Positions 14,966 through 47,327 of a DNA stretch of 64,000 nt are shown piece after piece. The stretch covers positions 156,306 to 220,305 of the forward strand of contig CACHJT010000001.1 of assembly GCA_902580215.1 (NCBI GenBank), given 5' to 3'. The notes under the pieces were generated by a model, which was not told the origin of the DNA, did not search any database, and saw nothing but the letters and a program-made list of their open reading frames with translations. The stretch's first letter is position 1. The number at the start of each line of letters is the position of its first letter. The stretch comes from an uncultured Candidatus Actinomarina sp. (GTDB lineage Bacteria; Actinomycetota; Acidimicrobiia; Actinomarinales; Actinomarinaceae). The translations under genes and the position numbers were made by a program.

Positions 14966-15316
14966 TTAAATGATTTGTCCAGGATTGCCTTCCAAATCAA
15001 CTATTTCTTTTGTAAAATTTTGAAGCTCTTTCATGCCTCCTGAAAGGTTGTAGGATTCAATATCTACAGAATTAACATAGTTTGTCACTCGACCTGACCT
15101 TGCTCCAGACCTACAAACAAAAATATATTTTTTATCAACCATTAACTTGTCAATACTTTCAACAATACTTCCCATAGGAATATGCGTGGCATTTTTGTAA
15201 TGGCCTGCATCCCATTCATCATTTTCTCTTACATCAATGAGTTGATATCCTTGTTGAATTAAATTTTCAAGATCTTCTGGCATTACAGAAGGAATGTTGT
15301 TAATACCTAATACCAC
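14966..15316 (-). CDS. Rhodanese-like domain protein
   Basis: 116 aa; YQLIDVRENDEWDAGHYKNATHIPMG, active-site CRSGARS. Confidence 0.93.
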   Translation of the reverse strand: MVLGINNIPSVMPEDLENLIQQGYQLIDVRENDEWDAGHYKNATHIPMGSIVESIDKLMVDKKYIFVCRSGARSGRVTNYVNSVDIESYNLSGGMKELQNFTKEIVDLEGNPGQII

Positions 15317-16136
15317 TCTGACGCTGCCTTAATCTTCTGACTCTTTCAACTGTAGGTGGATGTGTTGAGAATAGTTTGCTCAAACTATTTCCAGAAAATG
15401 CTTTGAGTGGGTCAGAAATAAATAGCTGACTTACAGCTGGGTTGACATCCATTGGAACTTTTGCATACCTTTCAATTTTTTCTAAAGCAGATGCTAAAGC
15501 TAAAGGATTGCCAGAAATCTCTGCACCAGTTTTGTCCGCACCAAATTCCCTTGTTCTAGAAATTGCCATCCTGATAATTAATGAAGCTATTGGTGCCGCA
15601 ATCATTGCGATAACAATTACTGCTGGATGAGTGTTTCTGTTTCTGTTACCACCACCCCAAAATACCATTCTGGACATAAAAGAAATAGCAGCAGCCAACA
15701 TTGCTGCAATACTTGAAACTAAAATGTCTCTATTTTTAATATGTGATAGTTCATGTGCAAGGACTCCTTCTAATTCATCTCTATTCAAAAGTTTTAAGAT
15801 ACCAGTTGTTACTGCTACTTTTGCATTTTTTGGATTTCTGCCAGTTGCAAAAGCATTTGGTTGATCACTATTAATTACATATAACTCAGGCATTGGCATT
15901 TTTTCTTTCTGTATAAGATGGGATATTATTTGGGTTACTTCTTCGTATTCTCCATCTTTTATTGGTTGAGCTCTTGTTGATTTAATAGCTAAATTACCAG
16001 AAAAAAAGTATATAAAAAAATTAAAAATTACAGCAAAAAAGAGTGCAGAGATTACATCAAAACCTAAAGCAGTTGCTGAAAATAAGACAACCAAAGTCAT
16101 TAACGTTAGTAGTGCTGTAGTTTTTACAAAATTCAT
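15300..16136 (-). CDS. htpX: M48 zinc metalloprotease HtpX
   Basis: 278 aa; HELSHIKNRDILVSSIAA, TREFGADKTGAEISGNPLALASALEKIE, STHPPTVERVRRL. Confidence 0.95.
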   Translation of the reverse strand: MNFVKTTALLTLMTLVVLFSATALGFDVISALFFAVIFNFFIYFFSGNLAIKSTRAQPIKDGEYEEVTQIISHLIQKEKMPMPELYVINSDQPNAFATGRNPKNAKVAVTTGILKLLNRDELEGVLAHELSHIKNRDILVSSIAAMLAAAISFMSRMVFWGGGNRNRNTHPAVIVIAMIAAPIASLIIRMAISRTREFGADKTGAEISGNPLALASALEKIERYAKVPMDVNPAVSQLFISDPLKAFSGNSLSKLFSTHPPTVERVRRLRQRQSGIRY

Positions 16137-16160: not shown

Positions 16161-17177
16161 TTATATTTTTTTTGCTTCCAAACAATAAAAGCCGCCAAGT
16201 CCATTTGAGTCAATAAGGGCCTTAAGCCCGGACAGTTGACTATTAATTTTTAAATTTTCCATACCTTCAGATAGTAAAAGTTTTTTTTGCAAATTATCAA
16301 AATACTCATCAAAACCATTAGAAATTAAAAAATCTCTCTGTAGTGACAATTTTGATTCATAGCCAAGGGTTTTTAGTTTTTTTATCACAGCAGAAAAATT
16401 AATATCATAAGTAATATCTACATTTCCAGGTTCTAATATTGGATCCACAGAAAGGTGGTGGTCTTTATAAGTCCTAAGTAATGACCTATACTTTCTTTTA
16501 CTTCTATCCGTTTGTTCGTAGCCATAATCAAAAAAAAGAATATTTTTTGGACTTAATTTACTGATAATTTTTTCTAAAAATATATCAATATTTGTTTGAA
16601 TTTCCACGTCTATATTTTCATCAGCCTTTATACGGTTCCATTCAATCCACTCAACAGTCTTTGTTCTTGCCTCAACAAAATCATATGAAAAGATTCCATC
16701 ATTAAAACAAACTATTTTTTCCTGCCATTTTCCATCTTTATATACTGCAATAGAACAAGGAATGTTGTCTAAAACTTCATTTCCAAAAACCAAATCACTA
16801 TTTTTAAAAGTAAGTTCTTCAAGGTTTGAGGCATTTTGGATATTTTTTTGACTCAACTCAGTTCTAGCTGTTGAAGATTTTTCAACAGCAAATTTATTTT
16901 TAATTTTAATTTGTTCAATAAGTGACCCCGTTCCAGAACCAAATTCAGTAATATTTAAATCTAAATTGCTTTTTTGAATCCATTTATTAATAATTTTTCC
17001 AAAATACTCAGAAACTTCTGGAGAAGTAAGAAAATCTCCACTTTTCTTTGATCTAACTTTTTCATTAGTAAAAAACCCATATTTTGAATAAAGAGCTTCC
17101 TCCATATATTCATCAAAAAATATTTTGTTGGTTTTATATTTTTTTAGAAGATAGTTATTAAATTCTTTGAATTCCAA
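16161..17177 (-). CDS. midA: MidA/NDUFAF7-family SAM-dependent methyltransferase (putative complex I assembly factor)
   Basis: 338 aa; MEEALYSKYGFFTN…SGDFLTSPEVSEYFGKII…ITEFGSGTGSLIEQI, FGNEVLDNIP, ILFFDYGYEQTDR; 3 bp after nuoN. Confidence 0.85.
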   Translation of the reverse strand: MEFKEFNNYLLKKYKTNKIFFDEYMEEALYSKYGFFTNEKVRSKKSGDFLTSPEVSEYFGKIINKWIQKSNLDLNITEFGSGTGSLIEQIKIKNKFAVEKSSTARTELSQKNIQNASNLEELTFKNSDLVFGNEVLDNIPCSIAVYKDGKWQEKIVCFNDGIFSYDFVEARTKTVEWIEWNRIKADENIDVEIQTNIDIFLEKIISKLSPKNILFFDYGYEQTDRSKRKYRSLLRTYKDHHLSVDPILEPGNVDITYDINFSAVIKKLKTLGYESKLSLQRDFLISNGFDEYFDNLQKKLLLSEGMENLKINSQLSGLKALIDSNGLGGFYCLEAKKI

Positions 17178-17180
17178 GTT

Positions 17181-18659
17181 TTAATTACCAAAAAAAATCG
17201 AAGAGGCTTCGCCAAGGTAACTGAATATCCCAGGAAAAATACCTGCAAAAAAAGTTATAAGAACTGTAAGGGCTCCTACAACTTTAAGAGGACTTTGAAA
17301 TTCAAATGATTTTTCTTCTTCAGGATTTTTTAGTTCATCCATCCATATAACTTTTGAAATTCTTGCATAGTAAACAAGTGCAATAACCGCATTTATCGCA
17401 CCTACTATAGCTAAGGAAACACCAATTATTTCCCCAGTGCTTAAAAGACTTCTAAAGACCACAAACTTAGCAAACCAACCTCCAAGCGGAGGTATACCTG
17501 CCAAAGAGAAAAAGAAAACAGTTGTTAGAACTCCAGTAAGAGGTGAGTGTTTCGCAATGCCTCCCCATTCATAAAAATTATCTGATTTCGTAAAGTTCGT
17601 TAAAAGATGTACTGATAAAAAGGCTCCTATATTCATAAATGCATAAATAATTAAATAAGTGACGCTTGCAAAAATACCATCTTGATAATTTCCAGTTATT
17701 CCAGATACAGCGAGTGGAGCGATAATAAATCCCGCCTGAGATATTGAGGAATACGCAAGCAACCTAACTGGGTTTGTTTGCTGTAGTGCTACTAAATTTC
17801 CTAGTGTCATTGTGGCACCTGCAACAATTGCTAAAATCACGCCCCAACTTTGGCCAGAACTTTCAAACACCTTCGTCAAAAGTATAATCAGTGCAACAAA
17901 GCCTGTGGCTTTGGAGCTAACTGAAAGATAAGCAGTTATTGGCAGAGGTGCGCCTTCATAAGTGTCTGGAGCCCATGAGTGAAATGGAACAACAGATATT
18001 TTAAATCCAATTCCTGAAATAACTAAAATAGCACTCAATAAAAGTACTGGTGAAGAGCCTAATGAGTTTGCAAGTAAATAGGCAGATATGTCTGCGAGAA
18101 CTAATTGACCAGTTAATCCATAAATTAGTGAGAATCCATACAATATTAGAGAAGCCGAGAGAACGCCTAGTAAGAAGAATTTAATTGCACCTTCATTAGA
18201 TTTTCTGTCTCCCTTTTTCCAACCAGATAATAAAAACATAGGCGTTGATGCTAACTCAATTCCAATAAATATTGTTAGTAGGTCCCTAGACGAACTTACT
18301 ACTAAAGCGCCAAGTAGAGAGCTGAGGAGAAGGTAATAATACTCTCCTTGATAAAACTTATCACTTTCTATGAAGTTTATTGAAAGTAAAAATGTCAAAT
18401 AAGTGATAAGTATAAACAGGCCTTTAAGAATGATTGAAAATTTATCTACTACAAAGCTATTGCCAAAAGTATAAATTGGATCTGAGTAAGTAGCCCACTG
18501 AATTACTAGGGGTGCTAAAGAAGCTAATGTCCCAAAAAGAGCAAAAGCTGCAACATAATATTTTGATTTTCTTGGAAGAATTAAATCTAATATTAAAGTT
18601 CCAACAATAGTGAATATAACTATTAACTCAGTTGAAATTGCAAAGTAGTTTATAGTAAT
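17181..18659 (-). CDS. nuoN: NADH-quinone oxidoreductase subunit N, cluster 1, start corrected to an ATT codon
   Basis: ORF track starts at an internal TTG (18398). The same frame stays open to the nuoM stop and encodes TINYFAISTELIVIFTIVGTLILDLILPRKSKYYVAAFALFGTLASLAPLVIQWATYSDPIYTFGNSFVVDKFSIILKGLFILITY, giving 492 aa (NuoN-2 is 490). Confidence 0.88.
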   Translation of the reverse strand: MTINYFAISTELIVIFTIVGTLILDLILPRKSKYYVAAFALFGTLASLAPLVIQWATYSDPIYTFGNSFVVDKFSIILKGLFILITYLTFLLSINFIESDKFYQGEYYYLLLSSLLGALVVSSSRDLLTIFIGIELASTPMFLLSGWKKGDRKSNEGAIKFFLLGVLSASLILYGFSLIYGLTGQLVLADISAYLLANSLGSSPVLLLSAILVISGIGFKISVVPFHSWAPDTYEGAPLPITAYLSVSSKATGFVALIILLTKVFESSGQSWGVILAIVAGATMTLGNLVALQQTNPVRLLAYSSISQAGFIIAPLAVSGITGNYQDGIFASVTYLIIYAFMNIGAFLSVHLLTNFTKSDNFYEWGGIAKHSPLTGVLTTVFFFSLAGIPPLGGWFAKFVVFRSLLSTGEIIGVSLAIVGAINAVIALVYYARISKVIWMDELKNPEEEKSFEFQSPLKVVGALTVLITFFAGIFPGIFSYLGEASSIFFGN

Positions 18660-18661
18660 TT

Positions 18662-20230
18662 TTATCCTCCAAATGCTTTAGAAAGAAGGCTAACAACAGC
18701 ATCATTAGTTGCTCCAAATATTAGCTTTGGAAATACACCGATAAGAATTGTTAGAATTACCAATGGAATCCATGCAGCTAATTCATAGCCGTCTGCATCA
18801 TGAAGCTCCATTTCATTCCATTCATCAGATGGTTCACCAAGATTAACTCTTTGTAACATCCACAACAAATATCCTGCGGTTAATACTGTTCCAATAGCTC
18901 CAGCGACCATTGATCCTCGAAAAACTGTAACATTTAAACCATCAAGTGGATTAAATGCTCCAAGTAATGCCATAAACTCTCCCCAAAATCCAGCAAGTCC
19001 TGGCAGGCCTAAAGAAGCCATTGCAGTAAACCCTAACAGTGCTCCAGTCTTTGGAAGTAGTTTCATATTTCCACCTAACCTTCCCATATCCCGAGTGTGA
19101 TATGTGTGAGCCATGGATCCTGAAAGGAAAAATAATAAGCCAGTGATCACTCCGTGTGCGACCATACCAATCATTGCAGCATTTATACCAATTGGTGTTA
19201 ATGAAGCTATACCCAACATTACAAAACCCATATGACCAACGGAAGAAAATGCTATTAATCTCTTTAGATCAGTTTGAGCTAAACATGCAAGTGATCCATA
19301 TATAATCCCTATTGCAGACAGAATTGCAATCGCAGGTGCCCAGGCTTTTGCTTGCTCTGGAAGTATTGGTATTGCGATTCTAACAAAACCATAAGATCCT
19401 AATTTCAAGAGTATTGCTGCTAACAATACTGAACCAACTGTAGGAGCTGCCGTGTGTGCATCCGGAAGCCAGGTATGCAAAGGCCACATTGGTACTTTAA
19501 CCGCAAAGCCAAGAAACAAAACTGCAAAAACTAGCATCGCAAATGTTCCTGTAAATGCACCATTAGTTCCAAGCTCAATTAACTCAGGGATGCTAAAAGT
19601 TCTGTTTCCTCTGTAATACAAGCCTAAAAAGCCAAGCAACATAAATGCGGAACCAAATAGAGTAAAAACAAAAAACTTAATACTTGCATATAGTCTTGTT
19701 TCAATTTGATTTTTAAATCCTGCCACAGTTCTTACAGTTTTATCTCCCCAAATTCCAATCATGAAATACATTGGCAGAAGAACTATTTCAAAAAATACGA
19801 AAAACAATATTAAATCAAGTGCAACAAATGTGCCATTCATGCCAGTCTCTAAAACTAGAATTAATGCAAGAAATCCCTTAGGACTTTTTGGTTCTGGTAG
19901 ATGTTCAATTGAGTAAATAATTGCTAAAACTGTAATAAATGTGGACAAAATTAATAAAGGAAGAGATATTCCATCTATCCCAATTTCATAATTTGCGTTG
20001 ATGCTTTTTATCCATGAAATTTTATTACCTAGTTGTAATTTGTCTGCATTAGAAAAATCAAACTGAGGCAGGAGTAAGGCACTTAAAATAAAGGTGACTA
20101 TTGACGATACTAATGCGAAGCCTTTGATTAAAAGCTCTTGGCTTTTTGGTATTGCGGTCAAAATTAATGCACTAATTAAAGGCAGAAAAACTACTGCCGT
20201 CAATCCTGTACCGTTTGTTAATAATTCCAC
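18662..20230 (-). CDS. nuoM: NADH-quinone oxidoreductase subunit M, cluster 1
   Basis: 522 aa; PMWPLHTWLPDAHTAAPTVGSVLLAAILLKLGSYGF, DLKRLIAFSSVGHMGFV. Confidence 0.96.
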   Translation of the reverse strand: MELLTNGTGLTAVVFLPLISALILTAIPKSQELLIKGFALVSSIVTFILSALLLPQFDFSNADKLQLGNKISWIKSINANYEIGIDGISLPLLILSTFITVLAIIYSIEHLPEPKSPKGFLALILVLETGMNGTFVALDLILFFVFFEIVLLPMYFMIGIWGDKTVRTVAGFKNQIETRLYASIKFFVFTLFGSAFMLLGFLGLYYRGNRTFSIPELIELGTNGAFTGTFAMLVFAVLFLGFAVKVPMWPLHTWLPDAHTAAPTVGSVLLAAILLKLGSYGFVRIAIPILPEQAKAWAPAIAILSAIGIIYGSLACLAQTDLKRLIAFSSVGHMGFVMLGIASLTPIGINAAMIGMVAHGVITGLLFFLSGSMAHTYHTRDMGRLGGNMKLLPKTGALLGFTAMASLGLPGLAGFWGEFMALLGAFNPLDGLNVTVFRGSMVAGAIGTVLTAGYLLWMLQRVNLGEPSDEWNEMELHDADGYELAAWIPLVILTILIGVFPKLIFGATNDAVVSLLSKAFGG

Positions 20231-20238
20231 TTTTCCTC

Positions 20239-22254
20239 CTATATAATAAACAAAATTAATAAACTAATCGTCACAACGCCACCTAAAAACAACATTAAAT
20301 ATTGCTGTGTTCTTCCTGTTTGTAGTAATTTAATTTTCCCACCAAAGCTATCAGTTCCTGTGGAAGACATATTCAAAACCTTATCAATTCCATTTTGATC
20401 AATATTGTTATAAACTATTGCACCCATAAATGATGCGAGCTGACCAAAACCATTTACAAATCTATCTATTACATTTGTGTTAAATGCATCAACTGCTTTA
20501 GCCATATTTAATTTGATTGGATCAATAATAAATTTGAAATAGAAATCATCAATGTAGTATTTGTTTTCTAAAACTTTCCAAATTGGTTCGATTTTAATTT
20601 TGTCGTCTCCAGTCTCAGCACTGCCTTGAAGTTGGTATAAATAGTAACCTAGACCTATCCCAAGCAATCCTGCAGTTAAACCAAGTCCTAGTGCAAATAA
20701 ATCGAAGCTTTCTGGGTGATATTCAATAATAGGATTTTTACGAGTAGTTACCCATTTGGTAAAACCTGTATAAACCCCTGGAATATTAACCCATCCAGAA
20801 GCGGCTGCAAATACAGCCAGTACAACTAAAGGGGTTGTCATCATGGAATCTGACTCATGTGGATGCCCATGACCTCTGTACTCTCCTAAGAAAGTAAGAC
20901 AAACTGCTCTAGTCATATAAAAAGCAGTTATGAAAGCACCTAATACAGCTATAAAGAAAAAGGTTGTTTCTCCTTCATGATTAAAAGATGCAAGGATTTC
21001 ATCTTTAGAAAAGAAACCTGCGAATGGTGGTAAACCGGCAAGTGCTACTGTTCCAATAATAAATGTTGAAAAAGTTTTTGGCATAACTTTTCTCAAACCA
21101 CCCATCTCCAACATACTATTACTGTGTACTGCATGGATTACTGATCCAGCCCCTAGAAATAATAGAGCTTTAAAAAATGCATGTGTCCACAAATGAAAGA
21201 GTGCTGCAGTATACGCTCCAGAACCAATTGCGGCAACCATATAACCAAGCTGACTTACAGTTGAATAAGCGAGAACTTTCTTTAGATCATCTTGAACAAT
21301 TGCTATGAGTCCGGCCGTAAGAAGAGTTACTACTCCAAATAACATTACAATGTCTAATGCTTCATTTGCTATTCCTTGATAAAAAGGGAACATTCTAGCT
21401 AATAAGTAGACTCCTGCAGTAACCATTGTTGCAGCATGCATTAGTGCTGAAACTGGAGTTGGGCCTGCCATTGCATCTGGTAGCCAGACATGTAATGGAA
21501 ACTGCGCACTTTTACCCATTGCGCCTATAAATAGCAATACCCCAGCAGCGAATGCTACATTTTTTATTGCTGGATAATCATGCGTTGCTTGATACAAAAT
21601 TTCAGATATCCTCATAGTGCCAGTATTTAAAACCAGAATTATTATTCCAATCATTAAGCCCACATCAGCAATCTTATTTGTAATAAAAGCCTTCATCGCT
21701 GCTGAAGAGTTATCCTTAACTTCCCAGTAATGTCCTATAAGTAAATACGAACAGACTCCAACTAATTCCCAGCCAATTAAAATTTGGATTAATGTAGGTG
21801 AAGAAACTAGTACAAGCATACTTCCTGCAAATAAAGTTAAGGACGTGAAGAAAAATGTATATCTTATTTCACCTTCCATATAATTTGTCGCATAAATAAA
21901 TACAAGAAGCGCAACAAGTCCAACAACAAAGTACATCATGATTGATAGACCATCTACTACCCAACCGAATTCAATATCGAATTGTCCGATATTTCCAACA
22001 TTAATAAAAAATTCATTGGCAACTCCTTCAGTTACATGAAGGTACATTAAAGCTAAGCTATAAATAAAAATTATTCCGATGGTGCCCAATGCGATTTCAG
22101 CACCCTTGAGAGGAAGGCTCTTTCCTGCAAAAGTAATTATTAGTGCAGCTATAAAAGGAAGAACTACAAGAACCCATGCAAATTCAGCAAGTACGCCACC
22201 ATCTGTGTACACGACCTCACCCTCAGCGAACAAATTAATATTTGTTTTTACCAT
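20239..22254 (-). CDS. nuoL: NADH-quinone oxidoreductase subunit L, cluster 1
   Basis: 671 aa; [54 protein letters not shown]. Confidence 0.96.
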   Translation of the reverse strand: MVKTNINLFAEGEVVYTDGGVLAEFAWVLVVLPFIAALIITFAGKSLPLKGAEIALGTIGIIFIYSLALMYLHVTEGVANEFFINVGNIGQFDIEFGWVVDGLSIMMYFVVGLVALLVFIYATNYMEGEIRYTFFFTSLTLFAGSMLVLVSSPTLIQILIGWELVGVCSYLLIGHYWEVKDNSSAAMKAFITNKIADVGLMIGIIILVLNTGTMRISEILYQATHDYPAIKNVAFAAGVLLFIGAMGKSAQFPLHVWLPDAMAGPTPVSALMHAATMVTAGVYLLARMFPFYQGIANEALDIVMLFGVVTLLTAGLIAIVQDDLKKVLAYSTVSQLGYMVAAIGSGAYTAALFHLWTHAFFKALLFLGAGSVIHAVHSNSMLEMGGLRKVMPKTFSTFIIGTVALAGLPPFAGFFSKDEILASFNHEGETTFFFIAVLGAFITAFYMTRAVCLTFLGEYRGHGHPHESDSMMTTPLVVLAVFAAASGWVNIPGVYTGFTKWVTTRKNPIIEYHPESFDLFALGLGLTAGLLGIGLGYYLYQLQGSAETGDDKIKIEPIWKVLENKYYIDDFYFKFIIDPIKLNMAKAVDAFNTNVIDRFVNGFGQLASFMGAIVYNNIDQNGIDKVLNMSSTGTDSFGGKIKLLQTGRTQQYLMLFLGGVVTISLLILFII

Positions 22255-22553
22255 TTCATTAAATCAAATTCGTTAATGTTTGCAGTTTGTCTATTTCTAA
22301 ACAACATGAGTACAATCGCAAGACCAATTCCAACCTCAGCAGCAGCAATTGTAATAATAAAAATTGTGAAAATTTGTCCCTGCATCAATGTGTCTGCAAG
22401 CATGGTGTCAAACATAATAAAATTGATATTGACAGAATTCAAAATTAACTCAATTGACAATAAAACCATTACGGCATTTCTTCTAACTAAGATTCCATAA
22501 ATACCTAAAGAAAATAGAGCAGCTGCAACAACTAATACAGGCTGAACAATCAT
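22248..22553 (-). CDS. nuoK: NADH-quinone oxidoreductase subunit K, cluster 1
   Basis: 101 aa; LLSIELILNSVNINFI, FIITIAAAEVGIGLAIVLMLFR. Confidence 0.95.
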   Translation of the reverse strand: MIVQPVLVVAAALFSLGIYGILVRRNAVMVLLSIELILNSVNINFIMFDTMLADTLMQGQIFTIFIITIAAAEVGIGLAIVLMLFRNRQTANINEFDLMKW

Positions 22554-23068
22554 ACTTGATCCTCATCAATTAATGCTTCGTCTTTCCTAGCAAGCGTTAT
22601 GCCTCCAATTAAAGCTGCGAGTAAAACAAAAGACACTAGTTCAAATGGGAATACAAATCTACTAAGTAGTATTTCACCTAATAGCTCCGTTGAAGAACCG
22701 GATGTTATCGTCACATCGCCATCAAAACCATTAATTAATATATATGAGAATAGAAGAAAAATTGATCCAGCTATTGCTGCTCCCAATTTTTTATTTTTAT
22801 CGTTATCAAGTTCTGCATTTTTGCCAAGGGGAGCACGTGTAATCATAATACCGAACAAGAAAAGAACTATTACTGCTCCAATATAAACGAGAACCAATAC
22901 AAGTGCTACGAACTCTGTTGACAACATTAAAAACAATATTGCCGTTAAAGCTAAAGTAAAAACTAATGAAATAGCTGCATGAATAACGTTTGAGGTTGTA
23001 ACTACCCTTATTGCAGTTGAAAGAAGCGCAAGAAGAACGAAATAAGTTACAATTTCAAAAATTTCCAT
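22550..23068 (-). CDS. nuoJ: NADH-quinone oxidoreductase subunit J, cluster 1
   Basis: 172 aa; VLVYIGAVIVLFLFGIMIT. Confidence 0.94.
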   Translation of the reverse strand: MEIFEIVTYFVLLALLSTAIRVVTTSNVIHAAISLVFTLALTAILFLMLSTEFVALVLVLVYIGAVIVLFLFGIMITRAPLGKNAELDNDKNKKLGAAIAGSIFLLFSYILINGFDGDVTITSGSSTELLGEILLSRFVFPFELVSFVLLAALIGGITLARKDEALIDEDQV

Positions 23069-23070
23069 TT

Positions 23071-23556
23071 TTAGCTTTCTAGACCTTCAGCCTCTGGAAC
23101 AGTTTTTAACCAATCATCCAAACGTTCTTTGTCGTGCAACATGTCGCCCATGTTAAATTCAGAATATTCATATTCTGGTGACCAAAATAATGCATCAAAA
23201 GGACAAACTTCTACACAAATTCCACAGTACATACATAATGCATAATCAATATCGAACCTATCTAGAACGGCTCTACTTCTTTGCCTACCCCCAGGTTTAG
23301 ATGGAGGTTGCAATTCTTTATGGCCCTCAATATAAATACACCAATCTGGGCATTGACGGGCACAAAGCATGCAACTAGTGCATGCTTCTTGATCTAAAGC
23401 GATCACACCCCTTGCTCTTGGTGCAACTTTCTCTTTTTCAAACGGATAGTTTACATTTGGTTTTGAATGGAAAGGAGACAAAGTTTTTAACATATTAACA
23501 ATTACGATTTTTATTCCAATTAAAAATCCGGGCACTTTTGGTTTAAATGTTTTCAT
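23071..23556 (-). CDS. nuoI: NADH-quinone oxidoreductase subunit I, cluster 1
   Basis: 161 aa; two 4Fe-4S motifs CTSCMLCARQCP and CMYCGICVEVCP. Confidence 0.95.
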   Translation of the reverse strand: MKTFKPKVPGFLIGIKIVIVNMLKTLSPFHSKPNVNYPFEKEKVAPRARGVIALDQEACTSCMLCARQCPDWCIYIEGHKELQPPSKPGGRQRSRAVLDRFDIDYALCMYCGICVEVCPFDALFWSPEYEYSEFNMGDMLHDKERLDDWLKTVPEAEGLES

Positions 23557-24527
23557 TAAAATCCAACCTTCATAACTGCAGTTACAAGAATATTAACTAA
23601 AGATGCAGGAATAAGTATCTTCCATGCAAGATTTTGAAGTTGATCTTCTCGGAATCTTGGTTGGGACCATCTTATTGCAACCAAGATAAAACCTAAAATA
23701 GCTGTCTTTGTCAAAAGAACTACTGGTCCATAAAAGTTTACCCATTCAGTTGGAAGGAGTGGTACATGGTAACCACCAAGGAATAATGTTGAAGCAATTG
23801 CACACAAAATAAACATATTCATGTATTCAGAAATATAAAATATAAGAAACCTGATACCAGAGTATTCTGTCATAAAACCCATAGTTAGTTCTGATTCACC
23901 AATTGGCATATCAAACGGTACTCGCATCATTTCAGCTGTTGCGGCAACCATGAAAATTAAGAATCCTACAATCTGCCCTCCAACTACAAAAGGTACTCCC
24001 CATTCAATTTGCTTTTCTACTATTCCAACTAGTGACATAGTCTCAGCTTGAATAACTACTCCAACAACTGCAAGAATTAACGGAAGTTCATAAGCTATAA
24101 GTTGTCCTGCAGCTCTCAAACCACCCATTAGGGAATATTTGTTTGCTGATGACCATCCAGCAGTTAGTACTCCTATAGTTCCCAAAGAGCTGATCGCAAG
24201 TGCAAAGAAAACACCCAATTCTAAATCTGCTACTACCAAAGTTGGGCTCATTGGGACTACTGCAAAAAGTGCGACGCAAGAAACCATAACATAAGCAGGT
24301 GCCCATTTAAACACGGGCCTATCAACTTCTGTAGGGATAATGTCTTCTTTTTGAACAAATTTAAGTATTTCCGCAAGAGGAAATATGAAACCTCTAAGTC
24401 CTACATGTAAAGGACCCGGTCTTCGCTGCATCCATGAGGCACCCTTTACATCCATTATTGTGAATATAATTGCTCCGTTCAAAGCAGCAATCGCAAGAAA
24501 TCCAACCTTGACTAAAACTTCTGTCAT
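23556..24527 (-). CDS. nuoH: NADH-quinone oxidoreductase subunit H, cluster 1
   Basis: 323 aa; RRPGPLHVGLRGFIFPLAEILKF, VPFDMPIGESELTMGFMTEYSGIRF. Confidence 0.95.
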   Translation of the reverse strand: MTEVLVKVGFLAIAALNGAIIFTIMDVKGASWMQRRPGPLHVGLRGFIFPLAEILKFVQKEDIIPTEVDRPVFKWAPAYVMVSCVALFAVVPMSPTLVVADLELGVFFALAISSLGTIGVLTAGWSSANKYSLMGGLRAAGQLIAYELPLILAVVGVVIQAETMSLVGIVEKQIEWGVPFVVGGQIVGFLIFMVAATAEMMRVPFDMPIGESELTMGFMTEYSGIRFLIFYISEYMNMFILCAIASTLFLGGYHVPLLPTEWVNFYGPVVLLTKTAILGFILVAIRWSQPRFREDQLQNLAWKILIPASLVNILVTAVMKVGF

Positions 24528-25720
24528 CTATCTACATCTCCTAGAACAAAGTCTAAACTTCCCATAATTGCAATTAAGTCTGGGAGTAAAGCCCCCTCAA
24601 GCATAATAGGTAAAATAGAAACATTGCTGAACGAAGCTGTACGAACTTTAAGTCTGTAAGGCCCTAACCCGCCGTCTGAGACTATATAGTAACCCATTTC
24701 ACCTTTTGGATTTTCTGCTCTTACATAGGTACGTCCTTGGGGAACTTTGATAACTTTTGGCACCTTTGCTTGTAGTGGGCCAGATGGCATAGAGTCGATT
24801 GCTTGTAAAACAATTTTTGCAGATTCAACCATTTCTTTTACTCTGACATCCCATCTGTCGTAACAATCTCCATTTTCTCCGACTGGAATATCATAATCAA
24901 ATTGATCATATGGCAGGTAATCTGTCTGGGTTCTTAAGTCTGACTTAACTCCTGATGCCCTGAGTATTGGGCCAGAAACACCATAAGCTTCTGCTGTTTC
25001 TGCAGTGAGAACGCCTACATTTTTGGTTCTTTTCTTAAAAACTTCATTTCCACCGATTAAATTTTGAAATTGATCAGCTGCCTGTATAACTTTTTCCATG
25101 GCTACTTTTGTATCTCTATAAAATCCAGCAGGTAAATCTTGAATATTTTTTTTCGAAGTGGGTCCTGCTCCGGCTGCAGGTTTTACTCCTCCAATACGAT
25201 TAAAGTTTGGATGAAATCGTCCTCCAGTTACTGACTCTATTAAATCTAAAACTCGTTCCCTGTCTTCCATCGCATAAAAAATTGGGGTTAGTGCACCAAC
25301 CTCAAGAGCGTATGCACCATTAAAGACGAAATGTGAAGAAATTCTGGCCATCTCAGTAAGAATTAGTCTGATATGCTTCGCTCTTTCAGGTACTTCTATT
25401 TCCATTAATCTTTCAGCTCCAGCAATGAATGGAATCTCATTTGAAAACCCTGCAACCCAATCTATTCGATTTACAAGTGTTGTAATTTGTGGATAGGATC
25501 TTACTTCTGCGAGCTTTTCATATCCGCGATGCATATAGCCCAAAACAGGTTTCACATCATGTACTTTTTCACCATCTACTTTTGCTACCAGTCTTAAAAC
25601 TCCATGAGTAGATGGATGTTGAGGTCCGATGTTAAGTGTCATATCTTCAGTTTCAATTTCAACTGAAACAGAAGCCTCTGAAAAACTGTTCATATTCTGT
25701 GGATCTAAAGCATTAACCAT
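24524..25720 (-). CDS. nuoD: NADH-quinone oxidoreductase subunit D, cluster 1
   Basis: 398 aa; LNIGPQHPSTHGVLRL, GYMHRGYEKL, RIDWVAGF, C-terminal DFVLGDVDR. Confidence 0.96.
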   Translation of the reverse strand: MVNALDPQNMNSFSEASVSVEIETEDMTLNIGPQHPSTHGVLRLVAKVDGEKVHDVKPVLGYMHRGYEKLAEVRSYPQITTLVNRIDWVAGFSNEIPFIAGAERLMEIEVPERAKHIRLILTEMARISSHFVFNGAYALEVGALTPIFYAMEDRERVLDLIESVTGGRFHPNFNRIGGVKPAAGAGPTSKKNIQDLPAGFYRDTKVAMEKVIQAADQFQNLIGGNEVFKKRTKNVGVLTAETAEAYGVSGPILRASGVKSDLRTQTDYLPYDQFDYDIPVGENGDCYDRWDVRVKEMVESAKIVLQAIDSMPSGPLQAKVPKVIKVPQGRTYVRAENPKGEMGYYIVSDGGLGPYRLKVRTASFSNVSILPIMLEGALLPDLIAIMGSLDFVLGDVDR

Positions 25721-26258
25721 CTACTGATCCATCACTTTCTGATTCTTCTGGCATTCCCTCAACATCTACATCTCCCGGCCAAGGTTTAACTTCTCTGCTT
25801 ATTAACTCAAAAGATTTCAGCATAGGATTTCCTTCATATCCATCAGGAAGATAAAGTTTTTCAAGATTTGGATGATTTTCAAAATTTATACCAAACATTT
25901 CGTAAGCTTCTCTTTCATGCCAATTTGCACCAGCGTACACATCAATAAGTGAGTTAATATTTGGCTCTGATTTACTAATACTTGTTGATACAGTAACTAA
26001 GTTAGTATTGTCTAAATCTGACAGGCATGTGATTATTTCAAAACTAGGCGAAACGCTCTCTTTTGGTGCTTCGCCAACAGAAACTTCATTGTCCCAATCT
26101 ATTGCTGAGAGCCAAGAGAAAAATTTTAAATTAAATTCATCTCTAAGTTTTTTATGTACATCAATCCACTCTGTTGAATCAATTTTTATATTGATTGTTT
26201 CAAACTCAAGAGTTGCCTCTTTAAAGCTTTCTTTTATATTGTTAAAAAATTCTTCCAT
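25713..26258 (-). CDS. nuoC: NADH-quinone oxidoreductase subunit C, cluster 1
   Basis: 181 aa; YAGANWHEREAYEMFGINFENHPNLEKLYLPDGYEGNPM. Confidence 0.94.
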   Translation of the reverse strand: MEEFFNNIKESFKEATLEFETINIKIDSTEWIDVHKKLRDEFNLKFFSWLSAIDWDNEVSVGEAPKESVSPSFEIITCLSDLDNTNLVTVSTSISKSEPNINSLIDVYAGANWHEREAYEMFGINFENHPNLEKLYLPDGYEGNPMLKSFELISREVKPWPGDVDVEGMPEESESDGSVDG

Positions 26259-26259
26259 T

Positions 26260-26757
26260 TTAAATTGGCTCAGTTTGAACTTCTAACCACTTCTCTTTCA
26301 TGTCTTCTCCGCGAATTTTTTTCTGTAGAAGAATAATTCCTTCCTGCAATGCCTCAGGTCTTGGTGGACAACCGGGAACATAAACATCGACAGGGATTAA
26401 TTGATCTACTCCCTTGGTGACTGAGTAAGAGTCCCAATAAGGTCCACCACTATTAGAACAAGATCCCATTGAAATAACATATTTTGGCTCTGGCATTTGG
26501 TCATAAAGCCTTTTCACAGAAGGAGCCATTTTATCTGTTACTGTGCCTGCAACAATCATAAAATCCGCCTGACGTGGAGATGCTGGAAGTGGAATAACTC
26601 CTAACCTCATAAAATCATGTCTTGGTCCGCTTACAGCCATAACCTCAATAGCGCAACATGCTAATCCAAATTGAAAGTACCATAGCGAGTATGATCTGGC
26701 CCAGTTGAATACTGAGGATATAGGTTTTGGTAGGCCGAATTTATCTATGACTCCCAT
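26260..26757 (-). CDS. nuoB: NADH-quinone oxidoreductase subunit B, cluster 1
   Basis: 165 aa; [43 protein letters not shown]. Confidence 0.97.
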
Positions 26758-27113
26758 TTTAAGACATCCTTTCTTATTGCGTATATAAGTCCAATTAACA
26801 AAATAAATATAAAAACAAACATTTCAATTAAGCCAAAGTAGCCAAGTTTTTCTAGGTTGATAGCCCATGGAAATATGAAGACCGCTTCGACATCAAATAT
26901 TACGAAAAGCAAGCCAAATATATAATACCTTACGTATGTTTGACTCCATCCAGTTCCAACTGGATCAACACCACATTCATAAGTTTGCAACTTTTCTTCG
27001 TAAGGCTTGTTTGGTCTTAGTACTGAAGCTACTCCAAGAAGCAATACGACAAGAAAGAGGCCAAAACCTAGCACTGCTCCTATGGTCACGTAATCTTGAA
27101 AATAAGAAATCAT
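26745..27113 (-). CDS. nuoA: NADH-quinone oxidoreductase subunit A, cluster 1
   Basis: 122 aa; [40 protein letters not shown]. Confidence 0.95.
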
Positions 27114-29165: not shown

Positions 29166-29969
29166 TTAATTCGGTTGGTATGTTCCAAAAAAGACTTGCC
29201 ATGCAAGACAAGTCTTAGCAAGCAAGCTTAACCAAATGTAAGCTCTTTCACCGTATAGATAGTCTTTCCATTTACCTACTTGCTTATATTGCAAAATCAT
29301 ATTTATTGAAAAGGTATTAAAGAATAAAAATATACTGACAAAAATCCAAACAACAAATTGTGGAACTCCTTGGGGATTAGAGTCAGTTGCTACCCCATCA
29401 CCTATTAGATTAATAAATATAAAAATCCAAGGGGCAACACCAACTAGGCAACCCATTATGTAGCTTGTCCAATCAACTTTTTCTGTGTACTGATTGTGAA
29501 CTTCCATCATCCATCCAAACCAACACATAGCTGCGTTCATAAAAAATATTCCAGCTAATGCCCAAATATCATAGATGCCAACTAAAAGTGCAATAAGAAC
29601 AATCATGACTGATGCACTTATAGAGTATTCAATCCATCTGACCTTATTTATTCCTTTTGATAAGTCTTCTTTGTACTTTTTATAAAAAGGACCGGAAATT
29701 AAATAGTGAGCGACAGCTGACGCAAGTAAGAAAGTTGCAACTGCTGGACCGAAATTTGTAACTTCTGTCCAAATTTCTAATTCTGGAACAAGAGCAAAGC
29801 TTGATGGATCATTAGGAGAGCCAACTCCAACAAGTTGAGTCAAGGTTATTGGAACAACAAAATCTGAATTAACAACTGTTCCAAGCCAAAATAAAAGCCC
29901 TCCCTGAATAAGATGGACTGTTCCCATAATTAAGTTAAACTTTTTTAATTTTTGAATTTTTGTTTCCAT
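29166..29969 (-). CDS. Heliorhodopsin
   Basis: 267 aa, 7 TM; RWIEYSISASVMIVLIALLVGIYDI (counterion-helix Glu) and GERAYIWLSLLAKTCLAWQVFFGT with candidate retinal-binding Lys (codon 29214-29216). Confidence 0.93.
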   Translation of the reverse strand: METKIQKLKKFNLIMGTVHLIQGGLLFWLGTVVNSDFVVPITLTQLVGVGSPNDPSSFALVPELEIWTEVTNFGPAVATFLLASAVAHYLISGPFYKKYKEDLSKGINKVRWIEYSISASVMIVLIALLVGIYDIWALAGIFFMNAAMCWFGWMMEVHNQYTEKVDWTSYIMGCLVGVAPWIFIFINLIGDGVATDSNPQGVPQFVVWIFVSIFLFFNTFSINMILQYKQVGKWKDYLYGERAYIWLSLLAKTCLAWQVFFGTYQPN

Positions 29970-40889: not shown

Positions 40890-41024
40890 CTATTCATCTA
40901 AATTTTCATTTTTTTGCTTATTTCTTAACCAAGTTAATAGTAAAGCAGGCACTAGAAACATCAACATTTCATCCCAACCACCCTGATGATTAAGTGCAGG
41001 TGGTGGAATTATTTTGGTGTACAT
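40890..41024 (-). CDS. 44-aa single-TM protein coupled to nuoN of cluster 2
   Basis: TAATG overlap with the nuoN stop; MYTKIIPPPALNHQGGWDEMLMFLVPALLLTWLRNKQKNENLDE*. Confidence 0.65.
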   Translation of the reverse strand: MYTKIIPPPALNHQGGWDEMLMFLVPALLLTWLRNKQKNENLDE

Positions 41025-42496
41025 TAGAGATAACCTTCGACCATCCACCGAGTTATATTAACAAGCGTATCTGGAAGTAATCCAAAATATATAGTTAAAG
41101 CAGCCAATGCACCTAGCAGTAGTTTGTCTGAGTTTTTAACTTGTATTTTTTCAACTACATTTTCTGTTTTCTCAACTGCTGCTACCCATATTGGTCGTAA
41201 GTAAAAATAAAATCCCGCAACTGTAGTCAGCATTAAGACTGTTACCAATATATATCTCTCATATGACCAAAGATTGGTAATAAGGATAAACTTTGAGACG
41301 AATCCACTTGTTAATGGTAATCCTGCAAGGCCAAGCATGAATATTGAAAATGTAATTGTTATAAATTTATTTTCCTTAAATAACCCTGAGATATTTGAGA
41401 TTTGAAAGTCCGAACTCAATTGACCGCTTATTATTGAAAAAACTGTAAAGATTCCAATTAATTGAATAATGTAAGTTATTAAATAAAACGTTGATGCACT
41501 TATTCCATAAACTCCTGAAGATATGCCAGAAAGTATAAAGCCTGATTGAATAACTCCACTATAAGCAATTAGTCTTTTCAAATCACTTTGATTTGCAGCA
41601 AATAATGCTCCAGCGAGTACAGACAAGATTACAACCGCACCAAAAAATAAATCAAATTGATCAATAATGAATGTTAAAGAGACTGCAACGAGTCTTGCAA
41701 GGACTATGAATGATGAAACCTTTGCAACAGTTGCCATATATCCTACATATCCAGTAGGAGAACCCTGATATACGTCTGGTGCCCATGCTTGAAAAGGTGC
41801 AGCAGCAACTTTAAATAACAATCCAACAATTATCAATATCAATCCAACAAATGTTGTTAGTGGAACATTATCTGGTCCTATGAAACTAATTGCAATACTA
41901 GTTTCATACACACCAATTATTGATAGTGAGACATAGATTAGCGCAATACCATATACAAATATACACGAAGCAAGTGAACCAAGTAAGAAATATTTCAAAG
42001 CAGCTTCATTACTTAATTGATCTCCTCTGTTAAGTCCAGCTAAAGCGTATAAACTAATTGAACCAATTTCTAAACCTATGAATAACATTATGAAGTTCTC
42101 AGCATCAATCATTAATAAAAATCCAGATGCGGACATTAAAATTAGTATTAAAGCTTCAGTAGTTTTGTCTTCTATTAATTCTGAAGTTTTCCAGAAAGAA
42201 TTAAAAGTAAAAAGCAAAACCATTCCAACAAGTACGTTTCCAACAAGGGCAAACTCATCAAGAAGAATTTTTTCTGTGAAATAAGAAGAGACGCCATCAG
42301 TGAGAAACAAACCGAACTTTAAAAATATTGTAAATAAAGTTAGCAAGATTCCAACAAACGATACATATTTTTTTACGAACATTGGAGTTGAAATGGTAAT
42401 TGTGCAAAATAATAAAACAATAACTGTCAGCAATAGTGCCAATGTAGGTGCAATTACTACGTAATTTATTCCTAATATCTCAGAAACTGTTGTCAT
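41024..42496 (-). CDS. nuoN: NADH-quinone oxidoreductase subunit N, cluster 2
   Basis: 490 aa; FKVAAAPFQAWAPDVYQGSPTGYVGYMATVAK, DLKRLIAYSGVIQSGFI (stop codon at 41024-41026). Confidence 0.95.
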   Translation of the reverse strand: MTTVSEILGINYVVIAPTLALLLTVIVLLFCTITISTPMFVKKYVSFVGILLTLFTIFLKFGLFLTDGVSSYFTEKILLDEFALVGNVLVGMVLLFTFNSFWKTSELIEDKTTEALILILMSASGFLLMIDAENFIMLFIGLEIGSISLYALAGLNRGDQLSNEAALKYFLLGSLASCIFVYGIALIYVSLSIIGVYETSIAISFIGPDNVPLTTFVGLILIIVGLLFKVAAAPFQAWAPDVYQGSPTGYVGYMATVAKVSSFIVLARLVAVSLTFIIDQFDLFFGAVVILSVLAGALFAANQSDLKRLIAYSGVIQSGFILSGISSGVYGISASTFYLITYIIQLIGIFTVFSIISGQLSSDFQISNISGLFKENKFITITFSIFMLGLAGLPLTSGFVSKFILITNLWSYERYILVTVLMLTTVAGFYFYLRPIWVAAVEKTENVVEKIQVKNSDKLLLGALAALTIYFGLLPDTLVNITRWMVEGYL

Positions 42497-43980
42497 TTTA
42501 GGTCCTTAAACATTGCTATAGTATCACTCAAAAAACTTGCCTCTTGAATTACAAAACTCTCAATATAGTTCGGATAAATTCCAATAAATAACATTAATAA
42601 AACTAATGGAGCTATTGACGCTGTTTCACGGGAATTGAGATCACTTAAGCTTTCATTTTCTTCATATTTAATAGGTCCAGTAAACATTCTTTGATATGCC
42701 CATAACATATATATTGCAGCTAAAACTACACCAAATGCTGCAAAGGATGTCAGAATTTTGTAGCTGTTAAAGCTTCCCATAAGAATCATGAACTCTCCGA
42801 CAAAACCATTTAAACCAGGAAGGCCTATCGAGGCGAATGATGTAAATAGAAATATTGCTGCATACCTTGGCATAGATATCTTGACTCCCCCAAAGTCACT
42901 AATTTTTCGAGTATGTCTTCTTTCGTATATAAATCCAACCAGCATAAATAAAGCACCTGCAGTGATACCGTGATTTATCATTTGTATGATTGCTCCCTCA
43001 ATACTTAAAAATCCACCAGCTGAAATTCCAAGCATAACAAATCCCATATGACTAACTGATGAATAAGCAATCAGCTTTTTGATATCGATCTGAGCAATTG
43101 CAACAATAGCACCATAAATAATTCCAATTACAGACAATATTGCAATCAGATTTTTGTAAGCTAAAAAACCTTCTGTAAAAAATGGTATGGAAACTCTTAG
43201 TATTCCATAGGCACCAACTTTTAGAAGCACTCCTGCCAACATTATACTTCCAGCAGTTGGAGCTTCTACGTGTGCATCCGGCAACCAAGTATGTAGTGGA
43301 AATATAGGCACTTTAATTAAAAAGCCAAATGTAAATAATAAAAATAAAGTTTTTGACTGTGACTCAAGCAAACTTAATGAAGACAATGTTTCAAAATCTA
43401 CAGCAAGCCTACCATTAACTCCAAAGCTTAGAACTGCTGTATAAACTGTTCCAATAAAAATAAATACCGAACCAAAAACAGTGTACAGAATGAACTTTAT
43501 AGTTGCGTATCTTCTATTCTCACCTCCCCATATTCCCATCAGGAAATACATAGGGATTAGTAAAGCCTCAAAAAATATAAACAATGAAATTAAATCACCA
43601 CTAATAAATACACCGTTGATTGCAAAATGTAACATTAACAATGATCCAACAAATCCTTTGCTTTCAGAGTGATCTTTGCCAATAGAAAGTAATGAAACAA
43701 ATACTAATAACGAGCTAAGCAATAACAAAAGAGTTGACATTCCAGAGAGTCCGAAATGTAGATTAATTCCATAAGACTGTATCCATTGAAAAGTTGATAA
43801 AATTGTAAATTCTGTTTTTGCATATTCCCCAAATAGCAAATAAACACATTGAGTTAACGTTATTAAAGAAAAGGCAATTCCAATTGGTCTAAATGTCTCT
43901 TTTCTTGAATTTGGAATCAAAAAGATAAGTATTGCACTAAAAAGTGGAACTAACAACAAAGAGAACATAATAGAAATCAT
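42493..43980 (-). CDS. nuoM: NADH-quinone oxidoreductase subunit M, cluster 2
   Basis: 495 aa; PIFPLHTWLPDAHVEAPTAGSIMLAGVLLKVGAYGI. Confidence 0.96.
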   Translation of the reverse strand: MISIMFSLLLVPLFSAILIFLIPNSRKETFRPIGIAFSLITLTQCVYLLFGEYAKTEFTILSTFQWIQSYGINLHFGLSGMSTLLLLLSSLLVFVSLLSIGKDHSESKGFVGSLLMLHFAINGVFISGDLISLFIFFEALLIPMYFLMGIWGGENRRYATIKFILYTVFGSVFIFIGTVYTAVLSFGVNGRLAVDFETLSSLSLLESQSKTLFLLFTFGFLIKVPIFPLHTWLPDAHVEAPTAGSIMLAGVLLKVGAYGILRVSIPFFTEGFLAYKNLIAILSVIGIIYGAIVAIAQIDIKKLIAYSSVSHMGFVMLGISAGGFLSIEGAIIQMINHGITAGALFMLVGFIYERRHTRKISDFGGVKISMPRYAAIFLFTSFASIGLPGLNGFVGEFMILMGSFNSYKILTSFAAFGVVLAAIYMLWAYQRMFTGPIKYEENESLSDLNSRETASIAPLVLLMLFIGIYPNYIESFVIQEASFLSDTIAMFKDLK

Positions 43981-45896
43981 CTTGGCACCAATGGTGTAGC
44001 AATAAACAATGCAATTAGAAGTAGTAAAAATAAACCAAAATAAACGACATAATTTCTCACTAAACCAGTTTGAGTTGTAGATGTAATTTTTGAACTTTTA
44101 TTAAATGCAGTTGATACGAAGTTAACAGATCCATCAATCAACATTCCATCAACAACAACTGCTACTTTACGACTAAGGTTCTTCATGCCGGAGACAAAGA
44201 AAAGATTACCGAATTTATTTAAATACAAAACGTTTGAGGAAAGATCTTTAACTAGGTTGATAGGACTTTCAAGTTTAAATTTTTTCAAGTCAATTCTTTT
44301 ATGAAGCTCCATTCCAAATAAGAGAAAAGCAATAATTAGTCCTGTGAAACCAGCACCAATAGAGAGTACTGCTAACACAACTAATGTAATGCCCTTTGGT
44401 AAATGCGTTACTTCAACATTCTCTAAAGTCACGTGTAAAACTTTTTCAAGACCATGAAAAAATGGTGTATTTATAAAACCAATAAATATAGAAAATATAC
44501 CTAAAAGTAGTAGGGGTCTTGTCATTGCTTTTGGTGCTTCAGCAACATCTGAGTGTTCAAAACCATTATCTTTTTCAAAAATTAGCAACCAATGTCTACC
44601 CATATAGAATGCTGTAAGAAAAGCCGCACCTAATGCTAAAGCCCAAAAAACATAATAGATACCTCCATTTACAAAAACGGAAGCAAGTATTTCATCTTTT
44701 GACCAAAAACCTGCAAGAGGAGGAATGCCTGATATTGCAAGAGTTCCTATTCCCATCATTGATGCAGTAATTGGCATTTTTTTTCTAAGTCCACCCATTT
44801 TTCTAATATCCTGTTCGTGGTGCATAGAGTGAATTACAGCACCAGCACCAAGAAACAAAAGTGCTTTAAAAAATGCATGAGTGACTAGATGAAAAATTGC
44901 AGCGACATATGCACCTGCTCCAATTGCAATAAACATAAATCCGAGCTGAGAAATTGTTGAATATGCCAATACCTTTTTGATATCAAATTGATTTATGGCA
45001 GAAAATGCAGCAAGAAGTGCTGTTATAAGTCCAAAAATTATAATCAATAAGCTAGCTATTTTTGAGTGTTGTAATAAGGGAGATATCCTGACAAGCATAA
45101 ACACTCCCGCAGTAACCATTGTGGCTGCGTGAATAAGAGCGCTTGCAGGAGTTGGACCTTCCATGGCATCTGGAAGCCAACTAAAAAGAGGGAATTGAGC
45201 AGATTTACCAAAAGCACCTAGCAATAAAAAGAGGGATATAGCCGTAATAGTAGACTCAGCTATTCCACTAGTATTTTGTAAAATTTTATAAAAATCAAAC
45301 GTATTAAAAGTATCTAAAATAATCATTAATCCAATTAAAAATCCAAAGTCCCCGACTCTATTTATGACAAACGCTTTATTACCGGCTTTTGCAGCAGCTG
45401 GTTTTTTAGACCAAAATGAAATTAAGAGATATGAACTCAAACCAACTAATTCCCAACCAAAGAACATCACTAAGAAGTTTGATGACATGACTAGAAGTAA
45501 CATTGAAAAAACAAAAAAGTTAAAATACACAAAATAATTACAATGATTTTCGTCCTTTTCCATATAAGAAGTGGAAAAAAGTTGAATTACAAAAGATAGT
45601 CCAGTTACTAAGATCAGCATAATTCCAGATAGTCCATCAAGAGTAAAACCAATGCTTATGTCAGGATTAGAAATCCATTGAAACAACTCAACGTTTACAG
45701 GTTTAAATTTATCAAGCCCTAAGACAATAAATGAATAAGCGGCAATAGCAAATGACAAGAGTGCACTATTTAAAGTAAAAAAGTTTGTAATTAATTCATT
45801 AAATAGTTTTTTGTTTAGAAAAAGGAAGATAGCAGTTAAAAAAGGCAGAAAGATTGGGAGAAGAAAAATTAATTCCAATTTAACCTCTTGATACAT
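43977..45896 (-). CDS. nuoL: NADH-quinone oxidoreductase subunit L, cluster 2
   Basis: 639 aa; [51 protein letters not shown]. Confidence 0.96.
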
Positions 45897-46212
45897 TCAA
45901 TACATCTACTGATGCAGATGACTGCTTTCTAAATATAGAAACAATAATCGCAAGGCCAACTACTACTTCAGCTGCTGCTACTACAAGAACAAAAAATACA
46001 AAGACTTGACCATCAACCTGTCCAAAATGTTTAGATGCAGAAATAAAAGTTAAGTTTACTGCGTTGAGCATTAATTCAATGCACATAAACATAATGAGAG
46101 CATTTTTTCTAATCATCATTCCTAGAAACCCTATTGAAAAGAGAATCGCTGCAAGTGTAAGATACCAGTCGGTAGTTACTTCAAGCATTACTATTTCGTT
46201 TCTTTGTATCAT
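45880..46212 (-). CDS. nuoK: NADH-quinone oxidoreductase subunit K, cluster 2
   Basis: 110 aa; [34 protein letters not shown]. Confidence 0.95.
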
Positions 46213-46756
46213 AAGCTAAAGCTATAGCTGCAGCGGTAGCAACAATGAGAAGTAAAGAAATGATTTCAAATGGAAATATCCACTCTGTAAAAAGTACGCC
46301 TGCAATTAATTGTGGTGTTCCTTCTGTATCAAACTCAACAGGTGGGAACCAGAGATCCCACTTGAAGTCTGAACTTATGGCAACATATGCTAAAAGGGAA
46401 ATAAGAATTAAAAATACTCCACTCACTAAAAATGTTTGACCTTTAATAGAGTCAGTAGTTTGTTCTTTTTTATCTACCCCTATCATCATTATTACAAACA
46501 AAAATAGAGTCATAACTGCTCCTGCGTAAACTAACATTTGTACCATTGCAACAAAAGTCGCATTTAAAGTTATGTAGATTATTGCTAAGGAAACCAGTGT
46601 CATAACTAAACCCATAGCGTTATGTACAGGGTTTTTGGCAAATATAACAATGAGTGCGCCTATGATAATGAGACTTGCTGGAGCAAAGAATAAAAGCGCC
46701 TCAACCAACTTACTCTTCCTCCAATGTCTGTCCTTCTTCAGGAGGTTTCTTTCCAA
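46181..46756 (-). CDS. nuoJ: NADH-quinone oxidoreductase subunit J, cluster 2
   Basis: 191 aa; [23 protein letters not shown]. Confidence 0.93.
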
Positions 46757-47324
46757 CTCCGAGTGAACCTGACCAATTTACTACATTTTGAAAATTTGGA
46801 TTTCCATTAGGAGAAGTTGCTCTCATCCATCCATCAGATGTATTTAAATCATCAAAATTAGTAAGCTTAGTTTGTTCCTCATGAGTGTTAGGGGTTCCAT
46901 CATCTTTTACAACTAATACCTCTTTATCAAATATTGCCTCGGACCTGTTAGCAACACTCATCTCAAAAAGAGAAGTCATAGTGATAGCTTCAGTAGGGCA
47001 GGCTTCCACACATAACGCACAATAAATACACCTGAGCATATTGATTTCATAAATAAATCCATATCTCTCCCCTGGACTAACAGGGTTCTCTTCTGGATTA
47101 TCCTCTCCTCGAACATAAATGCATTGTGCTGGACAAACTCCCGCACACAGCTCACAACCTATACACTTTTCCATGCCGTCTTCATATTTGTTTAAAACAT
47201 GGCGACCGTGAAATCTTTGGGGCTTTTCTCTAAATTCTTTTGGATATTTGTCGGTAACTGATTTTCTAAATAATTCTTTGAACGTTACTTTCAATCCTTT
47301 TATTAAACCAAAACTGTCACTCAT
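46710..47324 (-). CDS. nuoI: NADH-quinone oxidoreductase subunit I, cluster 2
   Basis: 204 aa; CIGCELCAGVCPAQCIYV and CIYCALCVEACPTEAI. Confidence 0.96.
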   Translation of the reverse strand: MSDSFGLIKGLKVTFKELFRKSVTDKYPKEFREKPQRFHGRHVLNKYEDGMEKCIGCELCAGVCPAQCIYVRGEDNPEENPVSPGERYGFIYEINMLRCIYCALCVEACPTEAITMTSLFEMSVANRSEAIFDKEVLVVKDDGTPNTHEEQTKLTNFDDLNTSDGWMRATSPNGNPNFQNVVNWSGSLGVGKKPPEEGQTLEEE

Positions 47325-47327
47325 AAC

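Follow-up and report, generated by a model that had tools for sequence, protein, structure and literature searches.

The window, i.e., the whole 64,000-nucleotide stretch of the Candidatus Actinomarina contig analysed here, carries two nuo clusters transcribed in the same direction (Table 1). Cluster 1 consists of 11 genes, nuoABCDHIJKLMN, and lacks nuoE, nuoF and nuoG, which distinguish the NADH-type 14-subunit enzyme; cluster 2 contains all 14 nuo genes, these three included. nuoN-1, the last gene of cluster 1, is followed by midA, coding for a methyltransferase, and then by a gene for a membrane peptidase. A gene for a heliorhodopsin-like protein is located between the two clusters, as published for Ca. 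Actinomarinales. In the accessible part of that account (PMC7771536), the locus shares with the window one nuo cluster without EFG, a heliorhodopsin gene between two clusters and a high AT content; this part treats F420 use rather than midA or the Arg/Thr switch described below. The EFG-less complex I may use F420 or ferredoxin, a use either proposed in the same account (PMC7771536) or deduced.

Table 1. Features of the window, with positions counted from its first nucleotide
Feature	Positions	Strand	Description	Basis
htpX-like gene	15300..16136	-	M48 membrane peptidase; gene follows midA directly	PF01435 132.8 bits; synteny
midA	16161..17177	-	NDUFAF7/MidA (PF02636, DUF185) SAM-dependent methyltransferase, 338 aa, TTG start	Pfam, phmmer, motifs
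nuo cluster 1	17181..27113	-	11 genes, without EFG	
nuoN-1	17181..18659	-	492 aa, starts with ATT, final nuo gene of the cluster	TIGR01770 373 bits; junction read
nuoM-1	18662..20230	-		ORF and gene order; homologous place in relatives
nuoL-1	20239..22254	-		ORF and gene order; relatives
nuoK-1	22248..22553	-		ORF and gene order; relatives
nuoJ-1	22550..23068	-		ORF and gene order; relatives
nuoI-1	23071..23556	-		annotation search
nuoH-1	23556..24527	-		ORF and gene order; relatives
nuoD-1	24524..25720	-	Arg-type, proposed MidA substrate	PF00346 284 bits in two stretches; PRK12322 445 bits
Arg65 codon of nuoD-1	25526..25528	-	CGC, predicted methylation site	
nuoC-1	25713..26258	-		PF00329
nuoB-1	26260..26757	-	Thr72 at switch position, codon 26542-26544	PF01058
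nuoA-1	26745..27113	-		ORF and gene order; relatives
heliorhodopsin-like gene	29166..29969	-	between the two nuo clusters	
nuo cluster 2	41024..55270	-	all 14 nuo genes	
nuoD-2	52621..53997	-	Thr-type (GYLH-T113-GMEK), without methylatable Arg at the site	PF00346 384 bits
nuoB-2	54408..54869	-	Arg71 at switch position	residue alignment

midA and its junction with nuoN-1

The midA product belongs to the Methyltransf_28 family (PF02636; 85.9 bits at a cut-off of 23.3). A phmmer comparison with PDB sequences ranks 5ztz, a Dictyostelium NDUFAF7 homologue, first (E=1.4e-14), followed by 4f3n (1.2e-13) and 1zkd (1.2e-6). The seven-beta-strand SAM site (E.GxGxG) and the G-D/H-F..TSPE, NE..D..P and DIT motifs are all present (GDFLTSPEVS, EFGSGTGSL, NEVLDNIP, DITYD). 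In an alignment of six MidA proteins from three phyla, it keeps 22 of the 22 invariant columns, the SAM-site glycines and NE..D..P included, and in the tree it forms a long branch. PF02636 was matched once in the whole 996-kb, 87%-complete assembly and no midA follows nuoN-2, so the earlier note was right that cluster 2 has no such gene behind it.

The same note had placed midA 3 bp after the nuoN-1 stop on a shared strand, which the Pfam match and our reading of the junction bear out: the TAA stop codon (17183-17181) is followed by AAC and then by the TTG start, leaving a 3 bp gap and a shared reading frame. Across 20 congeneric genomes the nuoN stop and the midA start are 2-8 bp apart, and midA is under purifying selection, with a median dN/dS of 0.31 over 89 pairs and about 0.13 for the nearest pair. 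Since both the spacing and the gene are conserved in this way, the arrangement is not accidental; the class survey presented below likewise speaks against chance adjacency, which we consider ruled out. midA is probably co-transcribed with the 11-subunit complex I operon.

nuoN-1 itself apparently starts at an ATT codon (18657-18659, AAAATT ACT ATA AAC), located after a GGAGGA within the last codons of nuoM. No ATG, GTG or TTG occurs for 261 bp, and the ATT is conserved in a congener (L108).

Arginine and threonine at the NuoD/NuoB interface

As the earlier note correctly stated, eukaryotic NDUFAF7 acts on Arg85 of NDUFS2, which it dimethylates early, before the 400-kDa intermediate (PMC3829151). 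This residue sits 3.7 A from the iron-sulfur cluster N2 and contributes to the attachment of NDUFS2 to NDUFS7 (PMC8042128). In the window, NuoD-1 has the motif GYMH-R65-GYEK, and Arg65 aligns with NDUFS2 Arg85 (bovine column) and with Arg65 of P. denitrificans. The NDUFS2 Arg85 column is occupied by Thr113 in NuoD-2. The NuoB paralogues are reversed: in the column of Thermus Arg83, NuoB-1 has Thr72 and NuoB-2 has Arg71. The residues of the two NuoD proteins are therefore those given by the earlier note, but NuoD-2 does not represent a simple loss of the arginine, since complex I-2 holds it in the neighbouring NuoB-2 subunit, outside the known target loop of MidA.

Among the 44 nuo clusters that yielded both motifs, the switch is perfect: 28 combine NuoD-Arg with NuoB-Thr, 16 combine NuoD-Thr with NuoB-Arg, and none is mismatched. 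Thermus thermophilus complex I has Thr64 in Nqo4 and Arg83 in Nqo6 (PMC3829151, PMC8042128), the arginine of its NuoB subunit occupying the space of the NDUFS2 arginine (PMC8042128). This is the arrangement of complex I-2 here, whereas the window genome combines both arrangements. Judging from the aligned residues, the swap in the window is the “intersubunit switch” of Yarrowia and Thermus.

Two further differences between the paralogues were observed. The match of NuoD-1 to PF00346 is split in two by a deletion relative to the model; Arg-type NuoD proteins of relatives skip about 32 model positions (169-200), which Thr-type ones retain. NuoB-2 keeps the arginine of VFRASPRQ, a residue hydroxylated in mammalian PSST; the corresponding NuoB-1 stretch, IPLPASPRQ, lacks it.

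Distribution of midA and NuoD types

The class of the host was surveyed in 148 genomes of 36 families, some of them incomplete drafts and many interrelated. midA was found in 121 genomes and Arg-type NuoD in 126; 119 have both, two have midA alone, seven have Arg-type NuoD alone and 20 have neither. Arg-type NuoD is thus present in 119 of the 121 midA-containing genomes (p=7e-17 on raw counts, not corrected for phylogeny). The two midA-only genomes look like assembly artefacts: in one (G040) the contig begins within nuoD and midA follows about 8 kb later, and the other (G104) is 77% complete. So do the seven with Arg-type NuoD alone. Their contigs stop short of the expected midA position in six cases (G025, G077, G089, G021, G039, G115) and also in G109, provided that its spacing equals that of the congener G030; apparent absence of midA from Arg-type genomes of the class was accordingly put down to contig ends.

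In all 93 pairs located on one contig, midA lies downstream of Arg-type nuoD on the same strand, typically at 8.5-9 kb, which is the length of nuoH-N. Both genes are missing from families f21, f11 and f23 and from one of two species of genus g29. As the group with neither gene takes in this species and 11 of the 11 f21 members, the loss is joint. In f10, f37 and parts of f7 and f27 the two genes are unlinked, yet both are kept.

The phylum sample comprised 298 genomes, with NuoD typed by motif patterns, which miss variants. Outside the class, midA occurs with Arg-type NuoD in 61 genomes and with Thr-type NuoD only in five; midA is missing from 35 genomes with Arg-type NuoD and from 41 with the Thr-type only. 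Arg-type NuoD therefore accompanies midA in 61/66 genomes (Fisher p=1e-9, not corrected for phylogeny). Two of the five Thr-only genomes are less than 70% complete, while G233, G339 and G404 are reasonably complete; in G404 MidA belongs to the clade paired with nuoD and its gene adjoins a lone NuoB-Thr gene. Fifteen midA-containing genomes were initially scored as motif-less, but their second NuoD has HRA or HRS. Such variants occur in f43, f77, f80, f81 and f46, often beside midA, so the seeming absence of Arg-type NuoD from midA-containing genomes of f43, f77, f80 and f81 was a miss of the search pattern. Since HRA and HRS accompany midA just as HRG does, the conserved feature is the arginine and not the glycine, and HRG is not required. 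The association of midA with HRG-type NuoD, for which the earlier note had proposed a survey, thus holds in the class, in the phylum and in the joint relocations described below, with the rule restated as Arg.

The converse, that Arg-type NuoD implies MidA, fails. Arg-type NuoD without MidA is common (the 35 genomes above, as well as E. coli), and the arginine therefore does not require the enzyme. In many midA-less Arg-type lineages nuoN is directly followed by htpX, and the NuoD motif of the 35 genomes is mostly GYMHRGFEK. This motif was seen in 20 genomes without midA versus one with it (L131-L134; f45, f60, f74, part of f46); midA-containing genomes mostly have HRGY, HRGA, HRGH or HRA. The residue after the glycine may, judging by these motifs, mark dependence on MidA.

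An htpX-type M48 peptidase gene accompanies the Arg-type nuo operon, either after midA or, in midA-less operons, directly after nuoN (the window, L131, L133, L134, L147, L201-L204, L206), and stays with midA where the latter is unlinked (G013). Its product is a possible quality-control partner.

Several PF02636 matches per genome were found in f69 and f72. Multiple PF02636 genes (up to six matches), or PF02636 together with Thr-type NuoD only, were noted at L111, L112 and L113 and in G321, G301 and G262; the surplus copies are possibly MidA paralogues with another substrate. Given the Thr-only genomes with midA and the multiple matches in f69 and f72, some members of the family probably serve something other than NuoD.

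Joint relocation of nuoD and midA and the role of MidA

In f54 (Streptomyces-like), f66 and f43 the Arg-type operon is nuoA-B(Thr)-C-H-I-J-K-L-M-N-htpX, without nuoD, and the visible operon parts of f63, f83 and f42 likewise lack D between C and H. None of these operons includes midA. Their Arg-type nuoD occupies a separate locus, where midA is 0.4-8 kb distant and no further nuo gene was found close by. In Nonomuraea gerenzanensis, for example, nuoABC-H lies near 1.21 Mb and midA with nuoD(HRG) near 0.47 Mb. Where nuoD is outside the operon, midA sits near it and not near the subunit genes left behind, i.e., the two genes travel together. Because midA accompanies the relocated nuoD, NuoD is better supported as the client of MidA than it would be by the adjacency in the window.

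Beyond the phylum, an EFG-less complex I with HRG occurs together with MidA in Paenibacillus cellulosilyticus (Bacillota). Of 14 control genomes, those of Caulobacter, Synechococcus and Haloferax encode MidA, and all three have NuoD as well; no MidA match was obtained in Thermus (Thermus composti), Deinobacterium or E. coli, each of which has NuoD. In Sinorhizobium, the alphaproteobacterial comparison, midA is part of lgt-midA-pgeF and unlinked to nuo, in contrast to its place beside nuo in the window.

We consider it highly likely that midA codes for a bacterial NDUFAF7-type arginine methyltransferase dedicated to NuoD-1, which dimethylates Arg65 during assembly of the 11-subunit complex I and spares complex I-2. 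We infer the methylation itself as well as its symmetry, timing and effect on assembly: MidA would symmetrically dimethylate Arg65 on freshly synthesized NuoD-1, ahead of its docking on NuoB-1, and dimethyl-Arg65 would then tune or lock the NuoD/NuoB interface beside cluster N2. Complex I-2 would bypass this step, for which it should have no need since its interface arginine is provided by NuoB-2 and NuoD-2 has threonine.

Paracoccus denitrificans is an alphaproteobacterium with a 14-subunit NADH enzyme. In this bacterial complex I the mark has been demonstrated at the aligned residue, which has the number 65 in both proteins: Arg65 of Nqo4 is symmetrically dimethylated, while E. coli NuoCD is not (PMC3750175). 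The operon-linked prokaryotic counterpart proposed by the earlier note is thus supported in part: the linkage is confirmed, but a bacterial counterpart as such is not new. With human NDUFAF7 and Dictyostelium MidA (PMC3829151, PMC9006661) the window enzyme shares the family and, presumably, both the target residue in the corresponding loop of the 49-kDa subunit and the timing of the step, which precedes the NDUFS2-NDUFS7 contact. It differs from them in being bacterial, encoded in a nuo operon and paired with an 11-subunit complex I devoid of the NADH module, in a cell that has a second complex I without the target arginine.

MidA could instead have another protein or DNA as its substrate, and the position of midA after nuoN could be a frozen operon order without functional meaning. 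Wolbachia MidA in E. coli was reported to methylate DNA adenine and cytosine, a result called preliminary by its authors (PMC12455994), and the Sinorhizobium locus and the genomes with several PF02636 genes or with Thr-type NuoD only also fit such a role. We nevertheless regard it as unlikely, as midA follows Arg-type NuoD even in the families where they are unlinked (f10, f37), and a relocated nuoD has midA nearby while the remaining nuo genes do not. Even less probable is an assembly chaperone that binds NuoD-1 and has lost methylation. The divergence of the window protein and the early action of the family in assembly (PMC3829151) would agree with it, but the invariant columns are intact, midA is under purifying selection and it tracks NuoD with a methylatable arginine rather than NuoD in general.

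The correlation with the residue might also be incidental if an Arg-type 11-subunit operon including midA had simply spread vertically. Almost every family of the class has the genes linked, so that one deletion removes both, and the existence of midA-less Arg-type lineages means that history plays a part. This explanation is improbable too, since both genes persist without linkage in f10, f37 and parts of f7 and f27, f54, f63, f66, f83, f43 and f42 differ in gene order and still pair midA with nuoD, and Paenibacillus, from another phylum, has the same combination. Extending the preferred reading, a methyltransferase dedicated to NuoD-1, we find it reasonably probable that nuoD and midA are a dedicated substrate-enzyme pair which moves as a unit in Actinomycetota, and that bacteria with two isoforms methylate only the EFG-less one, as a maturation step set by the NuoD/NuoB Arg/Thr swap.

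Neither the enzyme family nor its target is new, the modification has already been described in a bacterium, and MidA has been assigned a proteobacterial origin (Shahul Hameed 2018, as cited in PMC8042128 and PMC9006661). In the literature available without subscription we found no paper linking midA to a nuo operon or to the Arg/Thr switch; the actinobacterial operon, the discrimination between paralogues and the nuoD-midA pairing look new.

The effect of Arg85 dimethylation is hard to study in mitochondria, where removal of the enzyme disables the sole complex I. Bacteria with two isoforms, of which one has both the target arginine and its dedicated midA, provide a natural internal control, because respiration can go on through the other isoform once midA is deleted. 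Streptomyces-like actinobacteria, in which the nuoD-midA pair is unlinked, would make such a test practical. The Arg/Thr swap, in turn, means that the interface arginine can reside in either subunit.
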